Shown here piece after piece: positions 16,521-20,205 of a stretch of DNA of 64,000 nucleotides. Made by a program: the position numbers and the translations under genes. The stretch comes from Pontibacter deserti (lineage in GTDB: Bacteria > Bacteroidota > Bacteroidia > Cytophagales > Hymenobacteraceae), in NCBI RefSeq assembly GCF_023630255.1, contig NZ_JALPRS010000001.1, forward strand, positions 1,922,001-1,986,000, given 5' to 3'. The notes under the pieces were generated by a model. It was not told the origin of the DNA, ran no database searches, and saw only the letters and a program-made list of their open reading frames with translations. Numbering within the stretch: position 1 is the stretch's first letter; the number at the start of each line of letters is the position of its first letter.

Positions 16521-17825
16521 ATGGCTTCATTTGAAGTAATTGGTGGTAACAAGTTAAAAGGCGAGATTATACCGCAGGGAGCAAAAAACGAAGCACTGCA
16601 GATTCTGTGTGCAGTACTCCTGACTTCCGAAACAGTTACCATTTCCAACATTCCTGACATACGGGATGTAAATAAGCTTATCGAATTGCTGCAGGGTTTA
16701 GGAGTAGCTGTTGAAAGAATAGCACCTGATACCTATACTTTCCGAGCTGATAATGTAGATCTGGATTACCTGGAAACAGATGCATTTGTAGCGCAAGGTC
16801 GTGCTATACGTGGCTCGGTAATGATTGTAGGCCCAATGCTGGCCCGCTTTGGTAAGTCTAAAATGCCTAAGCCGGGTGGCGATAAAATTGGCCGTCGCCG
16901 ACTGGATACCCACTTTGAAGGTTTTGAGAAATTAGGTGCTAAGTTTACTTATAACGCTGCTGATAATTTCTTTATCGCAACTGCTGATAAATTGAAAGGT
17001 GCTTACATGCTGCTGGATGAGGCGTCGGTAACTGGTACAGCTAACATATTAATGGCTGCTGTACTGGCTGAAGGTACAACAACCATATACAATGCTGCCT
17101 GCGAGCCTTACGTGCAGCAGCTTTGCCGTATGCTTAACCGCATGGGCGCTAAGATTAGTGGCATCGGCTCTAACCTGCTGGTAATTGAGGGTGTGGAGAG
17201 ATTAGGTGGTACTGAACACCGCATGCTGCCTGACATGATCGAGATCGGCTCGTTTATTGGCCTTGCTGCCATGACGGGTTCAGAGATAACTATAAAAGAT
17301 TGCCAGATACCGGAACTTGGTTTGATTCCAGACACATTCCGACGCTTAGGTATAAAAATGGAGTTCCGTGGTGATGATATTCATATTCCGGCGCAGGACC
17401 ATTATGAGATTGATACTTATATTGACGGCAGCATCCTGAACATATCAGATCATACCTGGCCGGGCTTAACTCCTGACCTGCTGAGTGTGGCGCTGGTAGT
17501 AGCAACGCAGGCAAAAGGTACGGCGCTTATCCATCAGAAAATGTTTGAGAGCCGCCTGTTCTTTGTTGACAAACTGATAGACATGGGTGCTCAGATCATA
17601 CTTTGCGACCCGCACAGAGCTACGGTTATCGGCCATAACAACAACATTCCGTTACGCGGCATCCGCATGACCTCCCCGGATATTCGTGCCGGCGTGGCCC
17701 TGCTTATTGCAGCGCTTTCCGCAGAAGGTACCAGCATCATCGACAACGTAGAGCAGATCGACCGTGGTTACCAGAACATTGATGGCCGCCTAAATGCCAT
17801 TGGCGCGCAGATAAGAAGGATATAA
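16521..17825 (+). CDS. murA: UDP-N-acetylglucosamine 1-carboxyvinyltransferase
   Basis: First committed step of peptidoglycan synthesis: enolpyruvyl transfer from PEP to UDP-GlcNAc. It has 434 aa, full length. GAKNEALQIL at the N-terminus holds the conserved Lys-Asn pair. The active-site loop reads KPGGDKIGRR, with Asp121 where E. coli has Cys115. A Cys-to-Asp change at this position is known from several bacteria and makes MurA insensitive to fosfomycin; catalysis is retained. It shares a transcript with the DUF4290 gene and is separate from the dcw cluster. Confidence 0.96.
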   Translation: MASFEVIGGNKLKGEIIPQGAKNEALQILCAVLLTSETVTISNIPDIRDVNKLIELLQGLGVAVERIAPDTYTFRADNVDLDYLETDAFVAQGRAIRGSVMIVGPMLARFGKSKMPKPGGDKIGRRRLDTHFEGFEKLGAKFTYNAADNFFIATADKLKGAYMLLDEASVTGTANILMAAVLAEGTTTIYNAACEPYVQQLCRMLNRMGAKISGIGSNLLVIEGVERLGGTEHRMLPDMIEIGSFIGLAAMTGSEITIKDCQIPELGLIPDTFRRLGIKMEFRGDDIHIPAQDHYEIDTYIDGSILNISDHTWPGLTPDLLSVALVVATQAKGTALIHQKMFESRLFFVDKLIDMGAQIILCDPHRATVIGHNNNIPLRGIRMTSPDIRAGVALLIAALSAEGTSIIDNVEQIDRGYQNIDGRLNAIGAQIRRI

Positions 17826-17846
17826 AGTATAGATTTATACTTATAC

Positions 17847-17881
17847 AAAAAAAGAGCACCTGGAAATGGGTGCTCTTTTTT
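17847..17881 (+). terminator. Rho-independent terminator after murA
   Basis: AAAAGAGCACC pairs with GGGTGCTCTTTT, followed by T residues to 17881; A-rich on the upstream side. Confidence 0.9.
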
Positions 17882-17917
17882 GTGGTGAGATTATAGTTTG
17901 TAGTTGTTATATTAGCT

Positions 17918-18002
17918 AAAACATATACGTTGGTTCATTTAACAATAGTAATTCCGGCAGGCTTTGGAAGTTACGTACATAGTGCAGATAAGCGTATGTT
18001 TT
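17918..18002. repeat. Inverted repeat upstream of the cassette
   Basis: AAAACATATACG (17918-17929) and CGTATGTTTT (17993-18002) are imperfectly complementary and 63 nt apart. The spacing to the next GTTAGCA is too long for a normal attC, so I do not call it one. Confidence 0.35.
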
Positions 18003-18016
18003 CGTTTATACTATAG

Positions 18017-18652
18017 TTAGCATTAATATATGACATATAAGTTCTATGCTTTTAGGGAAGACTTTGAAGAAATCGTAAGGTTCATTTACGGAGAATTAGG
18101 TCTTTCTGTATTCCAAAGCTATTCACAGCCTGAAAAGCCTTTGCAGGAATACGGAACTGCCGAACAACTTTTAACAGAACTAGAAACTGGACAAAATCAA
18201 ATTCAACTTGCGCTTTGGAAAAAATCTTTCGGCTTTGATTATCGAATCAACAAAATTGACCTGAACCCAAAATACTGCAACGGTCATACCTTCAGATACA
18301 GAATTGACGGATGGGGATTGATTCATTTTCAAATAAGCGGACTAACGGGAGAGCGGCTAGAAACTTGCTCAATTTCCCACAACACGGAAAAGCGAGCAAC
18401 TACATGGGAATCGACTAATCCCGATATTGGAAAAGTAAGTGAGGTAAATTGGGAGGAAGTAAACAAGACCTCCAGAAAACTAAAATATTTAATCAGTAAA
18501 AAGTTGGCCAAAACTAGAATCAATGAGATAGATACACTATCACAAGCAAAAGAATACTTAGAGTTGGCAAAAGCATAAAGAGAAATACTAATGCTAACAA
18601 GGTGTAAACGTCAGCTTCGGCCGACGGCCTCCGCCGCCGCTTACACTAGCCG
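18017..18652 (+). mobile_element. Apparent solitary integron gene cassette
   Basis: The unit begins at G^TTAGCA (18016-18022) and ends at G^TTAAAA (18652-18658), and carries one short-leadered gene plus an attC-like site. If excised as a circle, its core sites would be TGCTAAC (18592-18598) and GTTAGCA, which are perfectly complementary, exactly what a cassette attC requires. In the inserted state the right-hand core is GTTAAAA, from the host flank. Removing it would restore CTATAGTTAAAAAACT in front of the DUF1810 gene. No integron integrase is in the window. Confidence 0.7.
18030..18578 (+). CDS. Hypothetical cassette-borne protein
   Basis: A 182 aa soluble protein that I do not recognise. 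It begins MTYKFYAFREDFEEIVRFIY, has no signal peptide and no membrane segment, and contains many aromatic and acidic residues. The start codon lies only 7 nt after the putative cassette boundary, typical of integron cassettes. Codon usage is visibly more AT-rich (AAA, AAT, ATT, CAA) than its neighbours, and the abundant AA(G/C)TATA heptamer is absent. Its stop is 13 nt before the attC-like site. Acquired origin is inferred from these features. Confidence 0.75.
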   Translation: MTYKFYAFREDFEEIVRFIYGELGLSVFQSYSQPEKPLQEYGTAEQLLTELETGQNQIQLALWKKSFGFDYRINKIDLNPKYCNGHTFRYRIDGWGLIHFQISGLTGERLETCSISHNTEKRATTWESTNPDIGKVSEVNWEEVNKTSRKLKYLISKKLAKTRINEIDTLSQAKEYLELAKA

Positions 18653-18658
18653 TTAAAA
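18592..18658 (+). other. attC-like recombination site
   Basis: 67 nt. R'' TGCTAAC (18592-18598), short spacer, L'' GTGTAA (18602-18607), a GC-rich central part with CGGCC-type self-complementarity, L' TTACAC (18641-18646), spacer TAGCC, R' GTTAAAA (18652-18658). The order of boxes, unpaired spacers and overall size fit integron attC sites. Confidence 0.7.
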
Positions 18659-18669
18659 AACTATTCACT

Positions 18670-19098
18670 ATGCCCGACAACTATAACCTTAACCGTTTTT
18701 TAGAAGCCCAAGAAAGTACCTACCAGGCAGCATTGGCAGAAATCAGAAATGGGAGAAAGCGTAGCCATTGGATGTGGTTTATATTTCCGCAGTTGGCTGG
18801 TTTGGGTTTTACTGAAACATCTCAGTTCTACGCCATCAAAAGTATAGACGAAGCCACTGCCTATTTACACCACCCTGTTTTAGGGAAGCGCTTGTTAGAG
18901 ATTACAGAAGCATTGCTAACTATAGAAGGCAAATCAGCAAACCAGATCTTCGGCAGCCCCGATGATGCCAAACTAAAATCTAGCATGACGCTATTTGCTG
19001 CTATCAGCGATGAAAACTCTGTGTTTCGTAAAGTGTTGGAAAAATATTTTAACGGCCAGAAGGATACAAAGACCTTACAACTTCTGGAGAGCAATTAA
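18670..19098 (+). CDS. DUF1810 family protein
   Basis: A 142 aa cytosolic protein of the DUF1810 family. Typical features are LNRFLEAQESTYQAALAEI, SHWMWFIFPQLAGLG and SQFYAIKSIDEATAYL. The family has no established function. It starts 11 nt after the right core of the cassette, so the insertion appears to separate it from its original promoter. No second attC follows it, so I treat it as a resident gene and not as a cassette. Confidence 0.85.
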   Translation: MPDNYNLNRFLEAQESTYQAALAEIRNGRKRSHWMWFIFPQLAGLGFTETSQFYAIKSIDEATAYLHHPVLGKRLLEITEALLTIEGKSANQIFGSPDDAKLKSSMTLFAAISDENSVFRKVLEKYFNGQKDTKTLQLLESN

Positions 19099-19118
19099 CT
19101 TTTCAAAATATAAAATTG

Positions 19119-19268
19119 CTATGGCGCGAGTGTCCTCGCTCGTGACGAACTATAGTTGGGCCTCTGGCCCAGTGGAATTACAATTCAGTAGAACTATACT
19201 TATTGAATTGTGGGTTGTGGCCAGAGGCCACCCTATACTAAACACGAGCGAGGACGCTCGCGCCATTA
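19119..19268. repeat. MITE-like 150-bp inverted repeat
   Basis: Outer arms ATGGCGCGAGTGTCCTCGCTC (from 19121, continuing GTG) and its near-complement ending GACGCTCGCGCCAT (19266) pair with about one mismatch over 24 nt. Inside are complementary GGCCTCTGGCC copies (about 19159-19169 and 19219-19229) and ACAATTCA/TGAATTGT arms around a small loop. No target-site duplication is obvious. It could fold into one long hairpin. A related short module lies at 20303-20326. Confidence 0.75.
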
Positions 19269-19313
19269 TGTTATAACGATAGTTTTGCTTCTTATACAAG
19301 AAGCTGAAAACCA

Positions 19314-19345
19314 TTTGAGCTAAACTATAGAATACCTTACCTTTG
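19314..19345 (+). promoter_or_regulatory. menB promoter
   Basis: TTTG (19314-19317), 20-nt spacer, TACCTTTG (19338-19345): a full match to the Bacteroidota consensus, 17 nt before the menB start. Confidence 0.8.
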
Positions 19346-19362
19346 AGGTAAATAATTGAGAT

Positions 19363-20205
19363 ATGAGCAAAGCAAATTGGATAACCGCTAAGGAATACGA
19401 AGATATAACCTATAAAAAGTTAGGCGGCGTAGCCCGCATAGCCTTTAACCGACCGAACGTGCGCAATGCGTTTCGCCCTAAAACGGTGTTCGAGCTTTTC
19501 GATGCGTTTCTGGATGCGCGTGAGGACACAAGTATAGGCGTGGTGTTGCTTTCTGCAGAAGGCCCGTCTACAAAAGATGGTGTTTATAGTTTCTGCAGCG
19601 GCGGCGACCAGAATGCCCGTGGTTTCCAGGGATATGTGGATGAAGGTGGTATTCCGCGCCTGAACATACTGGAAGTACAGCGCCTGATCCGTTTTATGCC
19701 GAAAGTAGTTATTGCTGTTGTTCCGGGTTGGGCAGTTGGTGGCGGCCATAGTTTGCACGTAGTCTGCGACCTCACACTTGCCAGCAAAGAGCACGCAATC
19801 TTTAAACAAACCGATGCCGACGTGACCAGTTTTGATGGTGGTTATGGTTCGGCTTACCTGGCTAAAATGGTAGGTCAGAAACGTGCTCGCGAAATCTTCT
19901 TCTTAGGCCGCAACTACTCTGCCCAGGAAGCTTACGACATGGGCATGGTAAATGCTGTTATTCCGCACGACGAACTGGAAGATACTGCCTACGAGTGGGC
20001 TCAGGAAATATTGGCTAAATCACCTACATCAATCAAAATGCTGAAGTTTGCCTTTAACCTGACCGACGATGGCATGGTAGGTCAGCAGGTTTTTGCCGGC
20101 GAAGCTACCCGCCTAGCTTACATGACCGAAGAAGCCAAAGAAGGTAGAAATGCCTTTTTGGAGAAGCGTAAGCCAGATTTTAAGAACATTCCGTGGATTT
20201 CTTAA
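19363..20205 (+). CDS. menB: 1,4-dihydroxy-2-naphthoyl-CoA synthase
   Basis: Ring closure of o-succinylbenzoyl-CoA in menaquinone synthesis. It has 280 aa in the crotonase fold. FNRPNVRNAFRP lies near the N-terminus; FCSGGDQ and GWAVGGGHSLHVVCDLT form the CoA site and oxyanion hole; TDADVTSFDGGYGSAYLAK is a MenB-specific block. No other men gene is nearby, so it stands alone behind its own promoter. Menaquinone fits the sdhCAB-type respiratory complex in this window. Confidence 0.95.
   Translation: MSKANWITAKEYEDITYKKLGGVARIAFNRPNVRNAFRPKTVFELFDAFLDAREDTSIGVVLLSAEGPSTKDGVYSFCSGGDQNARGFQGYVDEGGIPRLNILEVQRLIRFMPKVVIAVVPGWAVGGGHSLHVVCDLTLASKEHAIFKQTDADVTSFDGGYGSAYLAKMVGQKRAREIFFLGRNYSAQEAYDMGMVNAVIPHDELEDTAYEWAQEILAKSPTSIKMLKFAFNLTDDGMVGQQVFAGEATRLAYMTEEAKEGRNAFLEKRKPDFKNIPWIS

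Follow-up and report, generated by a model that had tools for sequence, protein, structure and literature searches.

The integron integrase IntI can insert gene cassettes off-target, outside the classical integron platform, at a short degenerate core that is called attG. The term attG is used in PMC12901181. Integrons typically have one attI site, which lies close to the integrase gene (PMC9024848). In two further sources, an extra domain around patch III is given as characteristic of IntI and as part of the integron definition (PMC9668308, PMC4792948). One of them also states that the I2 domain, which accommodates the extrahelical attC bases, has not been identified elsewhere (PMC4792948). 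Beyond Chlorobi and Ignavibacteriae, the IntegronFinder 2.0 paper names one complete integron of Bacteroidetes, that of Salinibacter ruber (PMC9024848). Here, we describe a gene cassette of Pontibacter deserti that, with a probability of roughly 0.8, was captured at one of many scattered attI-like sites by a Xer-like recombinase system, the enzyme of which has since been lost from this genome.

The cassette is of the attC type, comprises 636 bp, and occupies positions 18017-18652 of the plus strand of the window, i.e. the whole stretch of 64,000 nucleotides that was analysed. Read from the letters, it runs from G18016^TTAGCA to G18652^TTAAAA. The left recombination core GTTAGCA (18016-18022), with the crossover G^TT after 18016, is complementary to the R'' element of the attC site (18592-18658). 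This site consists of R'' (TGCTAAC, 18592-18598), the spacer AAG, L'' (GTGTAA, 18602-18607), L' (TTACAC, 18641-18646), the spacer TAGCC, and R' (GTTAAAA, 18652-18658). An earlier note, made from the letters, had proposed an integron-type cassette with G^TT cores and a single attC at exactly these positions, and both its coordinates and its letters were confirmed. The cassette contains one ORF of 182 aa (18030-18578), the product of which matched no family over the cut-off in Pfam, NCBIfam, or PADLOC. Upstream lies a gene of the EPSP-synthase family (16521-17825, plus strand; Pfam EPSP_synthase, 5.4e-66), which we read as murA and which served for synteny comparisons, and the right flank is formed by a DUF1810 gene (18670-19098, plus strand; Pfam, 7.8e-63). 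In the neighbourhood read around the cassette no integrase gene was found, and Rfam yielded no match above the gathering scores at 17700-19400. Downstream of the DUF1810 gene, a long inverted repeat (GGCGCGAGTGTCCTCGCTCGTG ... CACGAGCGAGGACGCTCGCGCC) was observed at 19120-19270, and by eye a similar start is present at the same place in the sister species G017.

In its inserted form, the bottom strand of the 67-nt attC folds modestly (-14.3 kcal/mol, z -1.79; 11 of 200 shuffles did as well), and the top strand has z -0.32. When the cassette's own R' was restored, as in the circular form, the bottom strand formed R and L stems separated by an unpaired spacer, with -17.4 kcal/mol (z -3.12, 3 of 200 shuffles as good), and the top strand reached -12.4 kcal/mol (z -1.43, 17 of 200 shuffles as good). 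A covariance model, as the earlier note had recommended, was built from the attCs of several genomes, 34 in all, with this genome contributing ten. The window attC scored 59.6 bits and the next best site in the 64-kb window 8.5 bits, a result that is not independent because the window site was one of the training rows. With the same model, which was thus partly trained on this genome, 36 attC-like sites were found in the genome at E<=1, and this count may be low, as 150 of 1047 first-look candidates were scored. The earlier description of the cassette as solitary therefore holds for the locus, which has one attC, but not for the genome.

In the attC alignment, the L stem covaries strongly. Paired cells made up 91.4% of the structure as a whole, a percentage that leans high because some rows had been picked for having a stem. 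The covariation counts are the stronger part of this evidence: 67 cells were changed on both sides, compared with 23.7 in shuffles and at most 18 in slid alignments. The conserved structure with variable sequence that is expected of integron attCs is thus present, both in this covariation and in the bottom-strand fold of the window site. Since the stems persist while the sequences change, recognition of the attC probably involves the folded bottom strand, and the site would recombine in single-stranded form.

A BLAST search with the cassette against its own genome yielded three more attC-like stretches, and a common leader was read in their surroundings. In the window, this leader forms an attI-like module of about 50 bp (about 17967-18016, plus strand) with the arrangement GTTACGTAC ATAGTGCAGATAAGCGTATGTTTTCGTTTATA CTATAG^, which includes an inverted repeat (GATAAGCG / CGTTTATA; in the consensus the second arm is CGTTTATC). 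A 34-base version of the leader has ten copies in the genome at up to three mismatches. A slightly shorter pattern, again at up to three mismatches, has 14 copies in this genome and 121 in 35 of the 50 genomes of the genus (own genome included), and the reversed pattern gave 0 matches in all 50. Within the 64-kb window, the first 26 bases of the leader occur once at no more than three mismatches, and they occurred in none of 100 shuffles. Five more array heads carry divergent modules (C1:1367703, C1:1750849, C1:524914, C1:28722, and C2:4028), and the genome therefore has at least 19 modules, 14 close copies and five divergent ones. For the attC-like matches at C2:148184, C3:318879, C1:924098, and C1:679980 the left ends were not placed, and one further match follows a shorter attC. 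A side observation concerns AACTATAGTT, which, together with close variants, looked frequent in the intergenic stretches that were read and often stands directly left of attI-like modules.

A simple G^TT (attG-like) target for the insertion was rejected, as the left side belongs to a repeated family of modules: the genome holds 13 other close copies and five divergent ones. The simple empty site proposed in the earlier note (CTATAG joined to TTAAAAAACT) was not noticed among the 30 murA loci looked at.

To what extent cassettes follow the modules was quantified at 50 fetched A-type leader loci. A GTT core was sought 36-49 nt from the block's first base and was present in 45 loci; in all 45, the crossover G lay 37 bases after that base. 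For 44 loci, a GTT core was combined with at least 500 nt of downstream sequence; those left out were L075 and L077 (contig ends) as well as L076, L081, L082, and L083 (an IS110-family element at the crossover). Of these 44 loci, 41 had downstream an R'' that complements all 7 bases of the left core (100 shuffles: mean 5.6, maximum 12), and in 41 it was accompanied by a GTT 33-140 nt further on (mean 4.4, maximum 9). When an L stem with a score of at least 6 was also demanded, 34 loci remained (mean 1.0, maximum 4). A test with fixed stem spacing, which is too strict for the shorter class of attCs, was passed by 13 loci (200 shuffles: mean 0.045, maximum 1). A matching R'' was absent behind three modules (L065, L079, and L103), and the L stem was absent in seven more; in addition, some cassette calls of a first walk over the leader loci looked like chance. 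Taken together, arrays of cassettes bounded by G^TT, a feature of integrons, are present behind the modules. At five loci (L076, L077, L081, L082, and L083, in the genomes G015 and G020), elements that encode an IS110-family transposase and measure about 1.66 kb lie exactly at the crossover end of the module. Their junction reads GTAG followed by TGCCTGTATTG, a similar start is found in L235 (Sabulibacter), and Pfam DEDD_Tnp_IS110 was detected in both elements that were scanned. These elements sit as if they targeted the attI-like module.

An alternative is that the module is a promoter or another regulatory repeat, behind which cassettes collect as they are expressed and kept. ORFs do start soon after the module in the 18 stretches of this genome that were listed, all viewed on the module strand, as such a role would predict. 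However, the fixed 37-nt distance of the crossover G in every one of the 45 loci that have a GTT core, and the fixed distance at which the module follows a recombinase gene in relatives (see below), argue for a recombination site, and a regulatory repeat appears improbable.

The murA locus offers a direct comparison between species. In the sister species G017, murA and the attI-like module are followed by an unrelated cassette and then by the same DUF1810 flank. Homology with the window stops 3 nt past the left-core crossover and resumes 6 nt past the right-core G. The G017 cassette has its own left core GTTACCT, which is complementary to its R'' (AGGTAAC), and a change to ATT has occurred in its last core. 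Behind the module of G028, a third cassette and a different downstream gene were seen by eye. The A-type module is thus shared by this genome (G000), G017, and G028, while the cassette differs. Among the 30 murA loci, the A-type pattern was found in these three; divergent modules were seen by eye in G048, G049, and perhaps G034. By coordinates, a module also lies downstream of murA in G002 and G006. In G014, the closest relative examined (MurA 99% identical), no module is present at the murA locus. The cassette is a discrete and mobile unit.

Thirteen upstream flanks were mapped into six relatives. Several relatives have modules at the orthologous positions with other first-cassette cores, and in others the modules are absent. 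This dispersal has two readings: either the modules are fixed docking sites that change in sequence, or modules and cassettes move together as one larger mobile element, the scattered copies being its insertions. The difference in module sub-type between species at some orthologous loci, e.g. L020 and L023, is not accounted for by fixed docking alone and fits the second reading, as does the conservation upstream of the modules. It fades about 12 nt upstream of dispersed modules, unlike that of integrase-linked modules: at -60 to -13, 46 dispersed modules have 0.13 bits per column, compared with 1.06 bits for 18 linked ones. Nevertheless, the same module type persists while the cassettes change at the murA and L066 loci, and the arrays of this genome have, by eye, no conserved right end besides GTT. 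A co-moving element therefore seems unlikely to us, though less so than a regulatory repeat, and we favour docking sites that are scattered over the chromosome.

Relatives of the cassette protein were found in 10 of 200 sampled genomes of the family, own genome included (9 of 199 others). None came from another genome of this genus among these 200, and a scan of viral contigs revealed no relative. The closest homologue, L280 (72% identity), belongs to another genus. Its left end, GTTAGCATTAATAT-ATG (G^TTAGCATTAATAT-ATG), equals that of the window cassette, as does its right end, AATACTAATGCTAACAAGGT followed by the attC, and the flanks differ. L280 lies behind the attC of another cassette, which is about 130 nt long and the R'' of which, ACATAAC, has an exact left core upstream. 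The homologue L281 (56% identity, G099) also is a cassette, with a shorter attC and an R'' that matches the left core in 6 of 7 bases. It is inserted at GTAG^TTAGCA, the TAG of which by eye is the stop codon of the upstream frame, and an attI-like module was not visible in the 110 nt upstream. Six of seven distant homologues (33-38% identity, L282-L288) have by eye no attC-type flanks and look like ordinary genes; members of the protein family hence also exist outside cassettes. The seventh, L284, comes after an attC-like site and has no matching R'' downstream. The homologues bear on the possibility that an ordinary, vertically inherited gene has acquired attC-like flanks by accident. The as-inserted fold taken alone is weak (z -1.79), which would fit this possibility. 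Yet the matching ends in another genus, the exchange of cassettes in the sister species, and the R'' statistics (41 of 44 loci) leave this explanation a negligible probability.

The first sign of the recombinase was the end of a tyrosine recombinase gene in front of the module in two relatives, where both copies had decayed. The integrase genes beside the module at L105 (G020) and L106 (G015) are internally deleted or decayed, and intact members occur in other species. With one of the decayed copies as query, the family was found, fragments included, in 43 of the 50 genomes of the genus. In relatives, the integrase gene lies upstream of the module and is co-directional with it, and the module lies about 100-110 nt downstream. 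Thirty integrase loci were fetched, one of which could not be scored; in 21 of the 29 scorable loci the module was found 102-106 nt after the integrase stop codon, and in the other eight it was placed by eye. The stretch TATATTAGCTAAAACATATACG (17908-17929 of the window, plus strand) resembles, by eye, the integrase-to-attI spacer of these relatives when compared with the linked consensus and the downstream sequences. After the integrase-linked module of several named genomes, a recurrent sequence of about 590 bp was noticed, which mostly starts with GTTGGCCGTGATTGGG (L203, L213, and L218; starts in L211, L221, L225, and L231) and looks like a cassette that lacks a long ORF.

Intact integrases have about 485 aa and consist of an N-terminal extension of about 200 aa, a SAM-like domain, and the catalytic domain. 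Their best matches were XerA, both in NCBIfam (214 and 212 bits, cut-off 220) and in the PDB (4a8e). The integron-integrase model TIGR02249 gave 207-208 bits (cut-off 265) in two stretches. Similarly, the integrase profile aligned to XerA and XerD in one stretch and to IntI4 (2a3v) in two, and IntI4 has 67 residues where the profile has 24 positions. The motif spacing was 60 residues in 11 of 11 integrases of the new family and 60-61 in 6 of 18 distant relatives, namely the six in which both motifs were found. For the two Xer proteins encoded in this genome it was 66-68, and for canonical IntI it was 102 in all 16 frames that the 22 loci tried had yielded. The linked recombinase hence has no IntI-specific additional domain and, by this test, is not IntI. 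In a tree of 47 rows, IntI formed one fully supported group, and the new family together with 16 of the 18 distant relatives formed a separate group (97/95); two distant rows were unresolved between the two groups, and the Xer rows are long branches, which makes the wider rooting unsure.

In named genomes, 147 relatives of the integrase were found and 80 kept. Those with 55-100% identity belong to Pontibacter, Rufibacter, Adhaeribacter, Botryobacter, and Sabulibacter; those with 36-55% identity include Bacteroidales, Cytophagales, Flammeovirgaceae, Arundinibacter, Tenacibaculum, Salinimicrobium, and one MAG labelled Sericytochromatia. The locus of Salinimicrobium sp. TH3 (L275) has, 61 nt past the integrase match, an inverted repeat that ends in G^TT. 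Seven strict cassette calls come after this repeat, and the attC of the first cassette is about 130 nt long. The automatic cassette walk over the 80 named loci also included chance-like matches (e.g. L215, L238, L241, and L267), which were left out of the counts.

Another possibility is that the window holds an ordinary single cassette (SALIN-like), the off-target insertion of which at an attG-like G^TT was the work of a canonical IntI, either lost since or located on another replicon. Such an origin would account for the lack of an integrase beside the window cassette, and the homologue L281, at GTAG^TTAGCA with no visible module in 110 nt, indicates that off-target insertion may happen. However, a conserved module forms the left site, and in relatives this module adjoins another recombinase family. 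Moreover, the search of the genome for a distant intI, suggested in the earlier note, gave no TIGR02249 match over the cut-off, and canonical IntI exceeded it in 2 of 150 genomes of the family, both of another genus. Across the phylum, it did so in 105 of 395 sampled genomes, one listed as belonging to the same class and the others to other classes. An off-target IntI insertion thus has a small probability, and a lost canonical IntI was rejected as the source, IntI being over the cut-off in so few genomes of the family.

The enzyme of the new family is also missing from this genome. The earlier statement that an integrase is lacking, correct for the neighbourhood, extends to the genome searches: besides the lack of IntI, 0 members of the linked family were found at E<=1e-20, and the strict definition, an integrase gene in the same genome, does not apply here. 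Eight PF00589 matches exceeded the cut-off, and two Xer-like recombinases, 301 and 303 aa long, are read as XerD and XerC. At the array at C1:874249, homology reaches into the final 10-30 codons of the integrase gene, i.e. a remnant of its 3'-end; at the other 13 modules, homology begins, among the matches listed, 0-16 bases upstream of the block. We propose that this genome lost the recombinase gene and kept the docking sites and cassettes. Because no member of the family is present at E<=1e-20, the array may be inert. Modules apart from integrases are common in the genus: an integrase match precedes 20 of the 121 modules, at a distance of 109-110 nt in 18 cases and of 99 or 359 nt in one case each, and a number of these matches are gene fragments. 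The remaining 101 have no integrase match beside them, a count in which weaker fragments would be missed. In 18 of the 35 module-bearing genomes this applies to all modules. In G028, which is a single contig, eight A-type modules lack an adjoining integrase, and the integrase is encoded elsewhere in the genome.

The preferred reading, capture at a scattered attI-like site, can be outlined as follows. A mobile cassette would have been inserted by site-specific recombination between an attI-like site and attC, with the crossover at G^TT, and the module of the window, working as attI, would be one of many such docking sites. The enzyme was most likely a Xer-like tyrosine recombinase with the N-terminal extension and no IntI insert, which in relatives is encoded directly upstream of such a site. 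It would recombine attI with attC also in trans, on distant sites. To us, the system looks like an integron of Bacteroidota that has many dispersed attI sites and is operated by a Xer-like integrase. The wider claim that Bacteroidota possess a second kind of integron, in which a Xer-like integrase that has the extension and lacks an I2-type insert brings folded attC hairpins to scattered attI-like sites, so that the whole genome is a capture platform that this lineage kept after losing the enzyme, seems to us somewhat more probable than its negation.

As to the cargo, 20 other ORFs were picked from cassette arrays of this genome, eight of which had a Pfam family over the cut-off: DUF7683, DUF1493, dienelactone-hydrolase-like, DUF6843, CarbopepD_reg_2, DUF4348, Imm33, and CAAX-protease-like. 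PADLOC gave no match for ten scanned cassette ORFs, the window ORF included.

Among the openly licensed PMC papers that the searches covered, no recognisable description of the integrase family or of dispersed attI sites was found. Standard integron searches would be expected to miss this integron-like gene-capture system. The earlier note had suspected that single-attC insertions are under-recorded; this looks right, the larger reason being that the recombinase linked to the sites is not a canonical IntI. If the reading is true, surveys that rely on IntI models or on at least two attC sites under-count gene capture in Bacteroidota, and both the origin of folded-attC use by a Xer-like enzyme and the need for I2 can be tested directly.

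Compared with known systems, the locus shares with attG insertions that the cassette lies outside a classical integron platform; the target, however, is not a short non-attI core but a repeated, conserved module of about 50 bp. As in CALINs and single-attC loci, attC cassettes occur in this genome with no integrase gene nearby, but here the array heads with placed left ends carry modules of a repeated family that is linked to a recombinase in relatives. The new integrase resembles Xer proteins in that its catalytic domain is closest to XerA among the solved structures and NCBIfam models; it differs in that it is not the housekeeping pair and is linked to attI-like sites and attC cassettes. The system shares with chromosomal integrons the G^TT crossover, the R''-L''-L'-R' attC with covarying stems (the window site folding better on the bottom strand), the arrays of small genes, many of which belong to no known family, and an attI-like site beside the integrase gene, which is found in relatives but not in this genome. 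In contrast to chromosomal integrons, the integrase lacks the IntI-specific insert, falls outside the IntI clade, and has an N-terminal extension of about 200 aa; 101 of 121 attI-like sites have no integrase match beside them; and the integrase gene points towards the cassettes.
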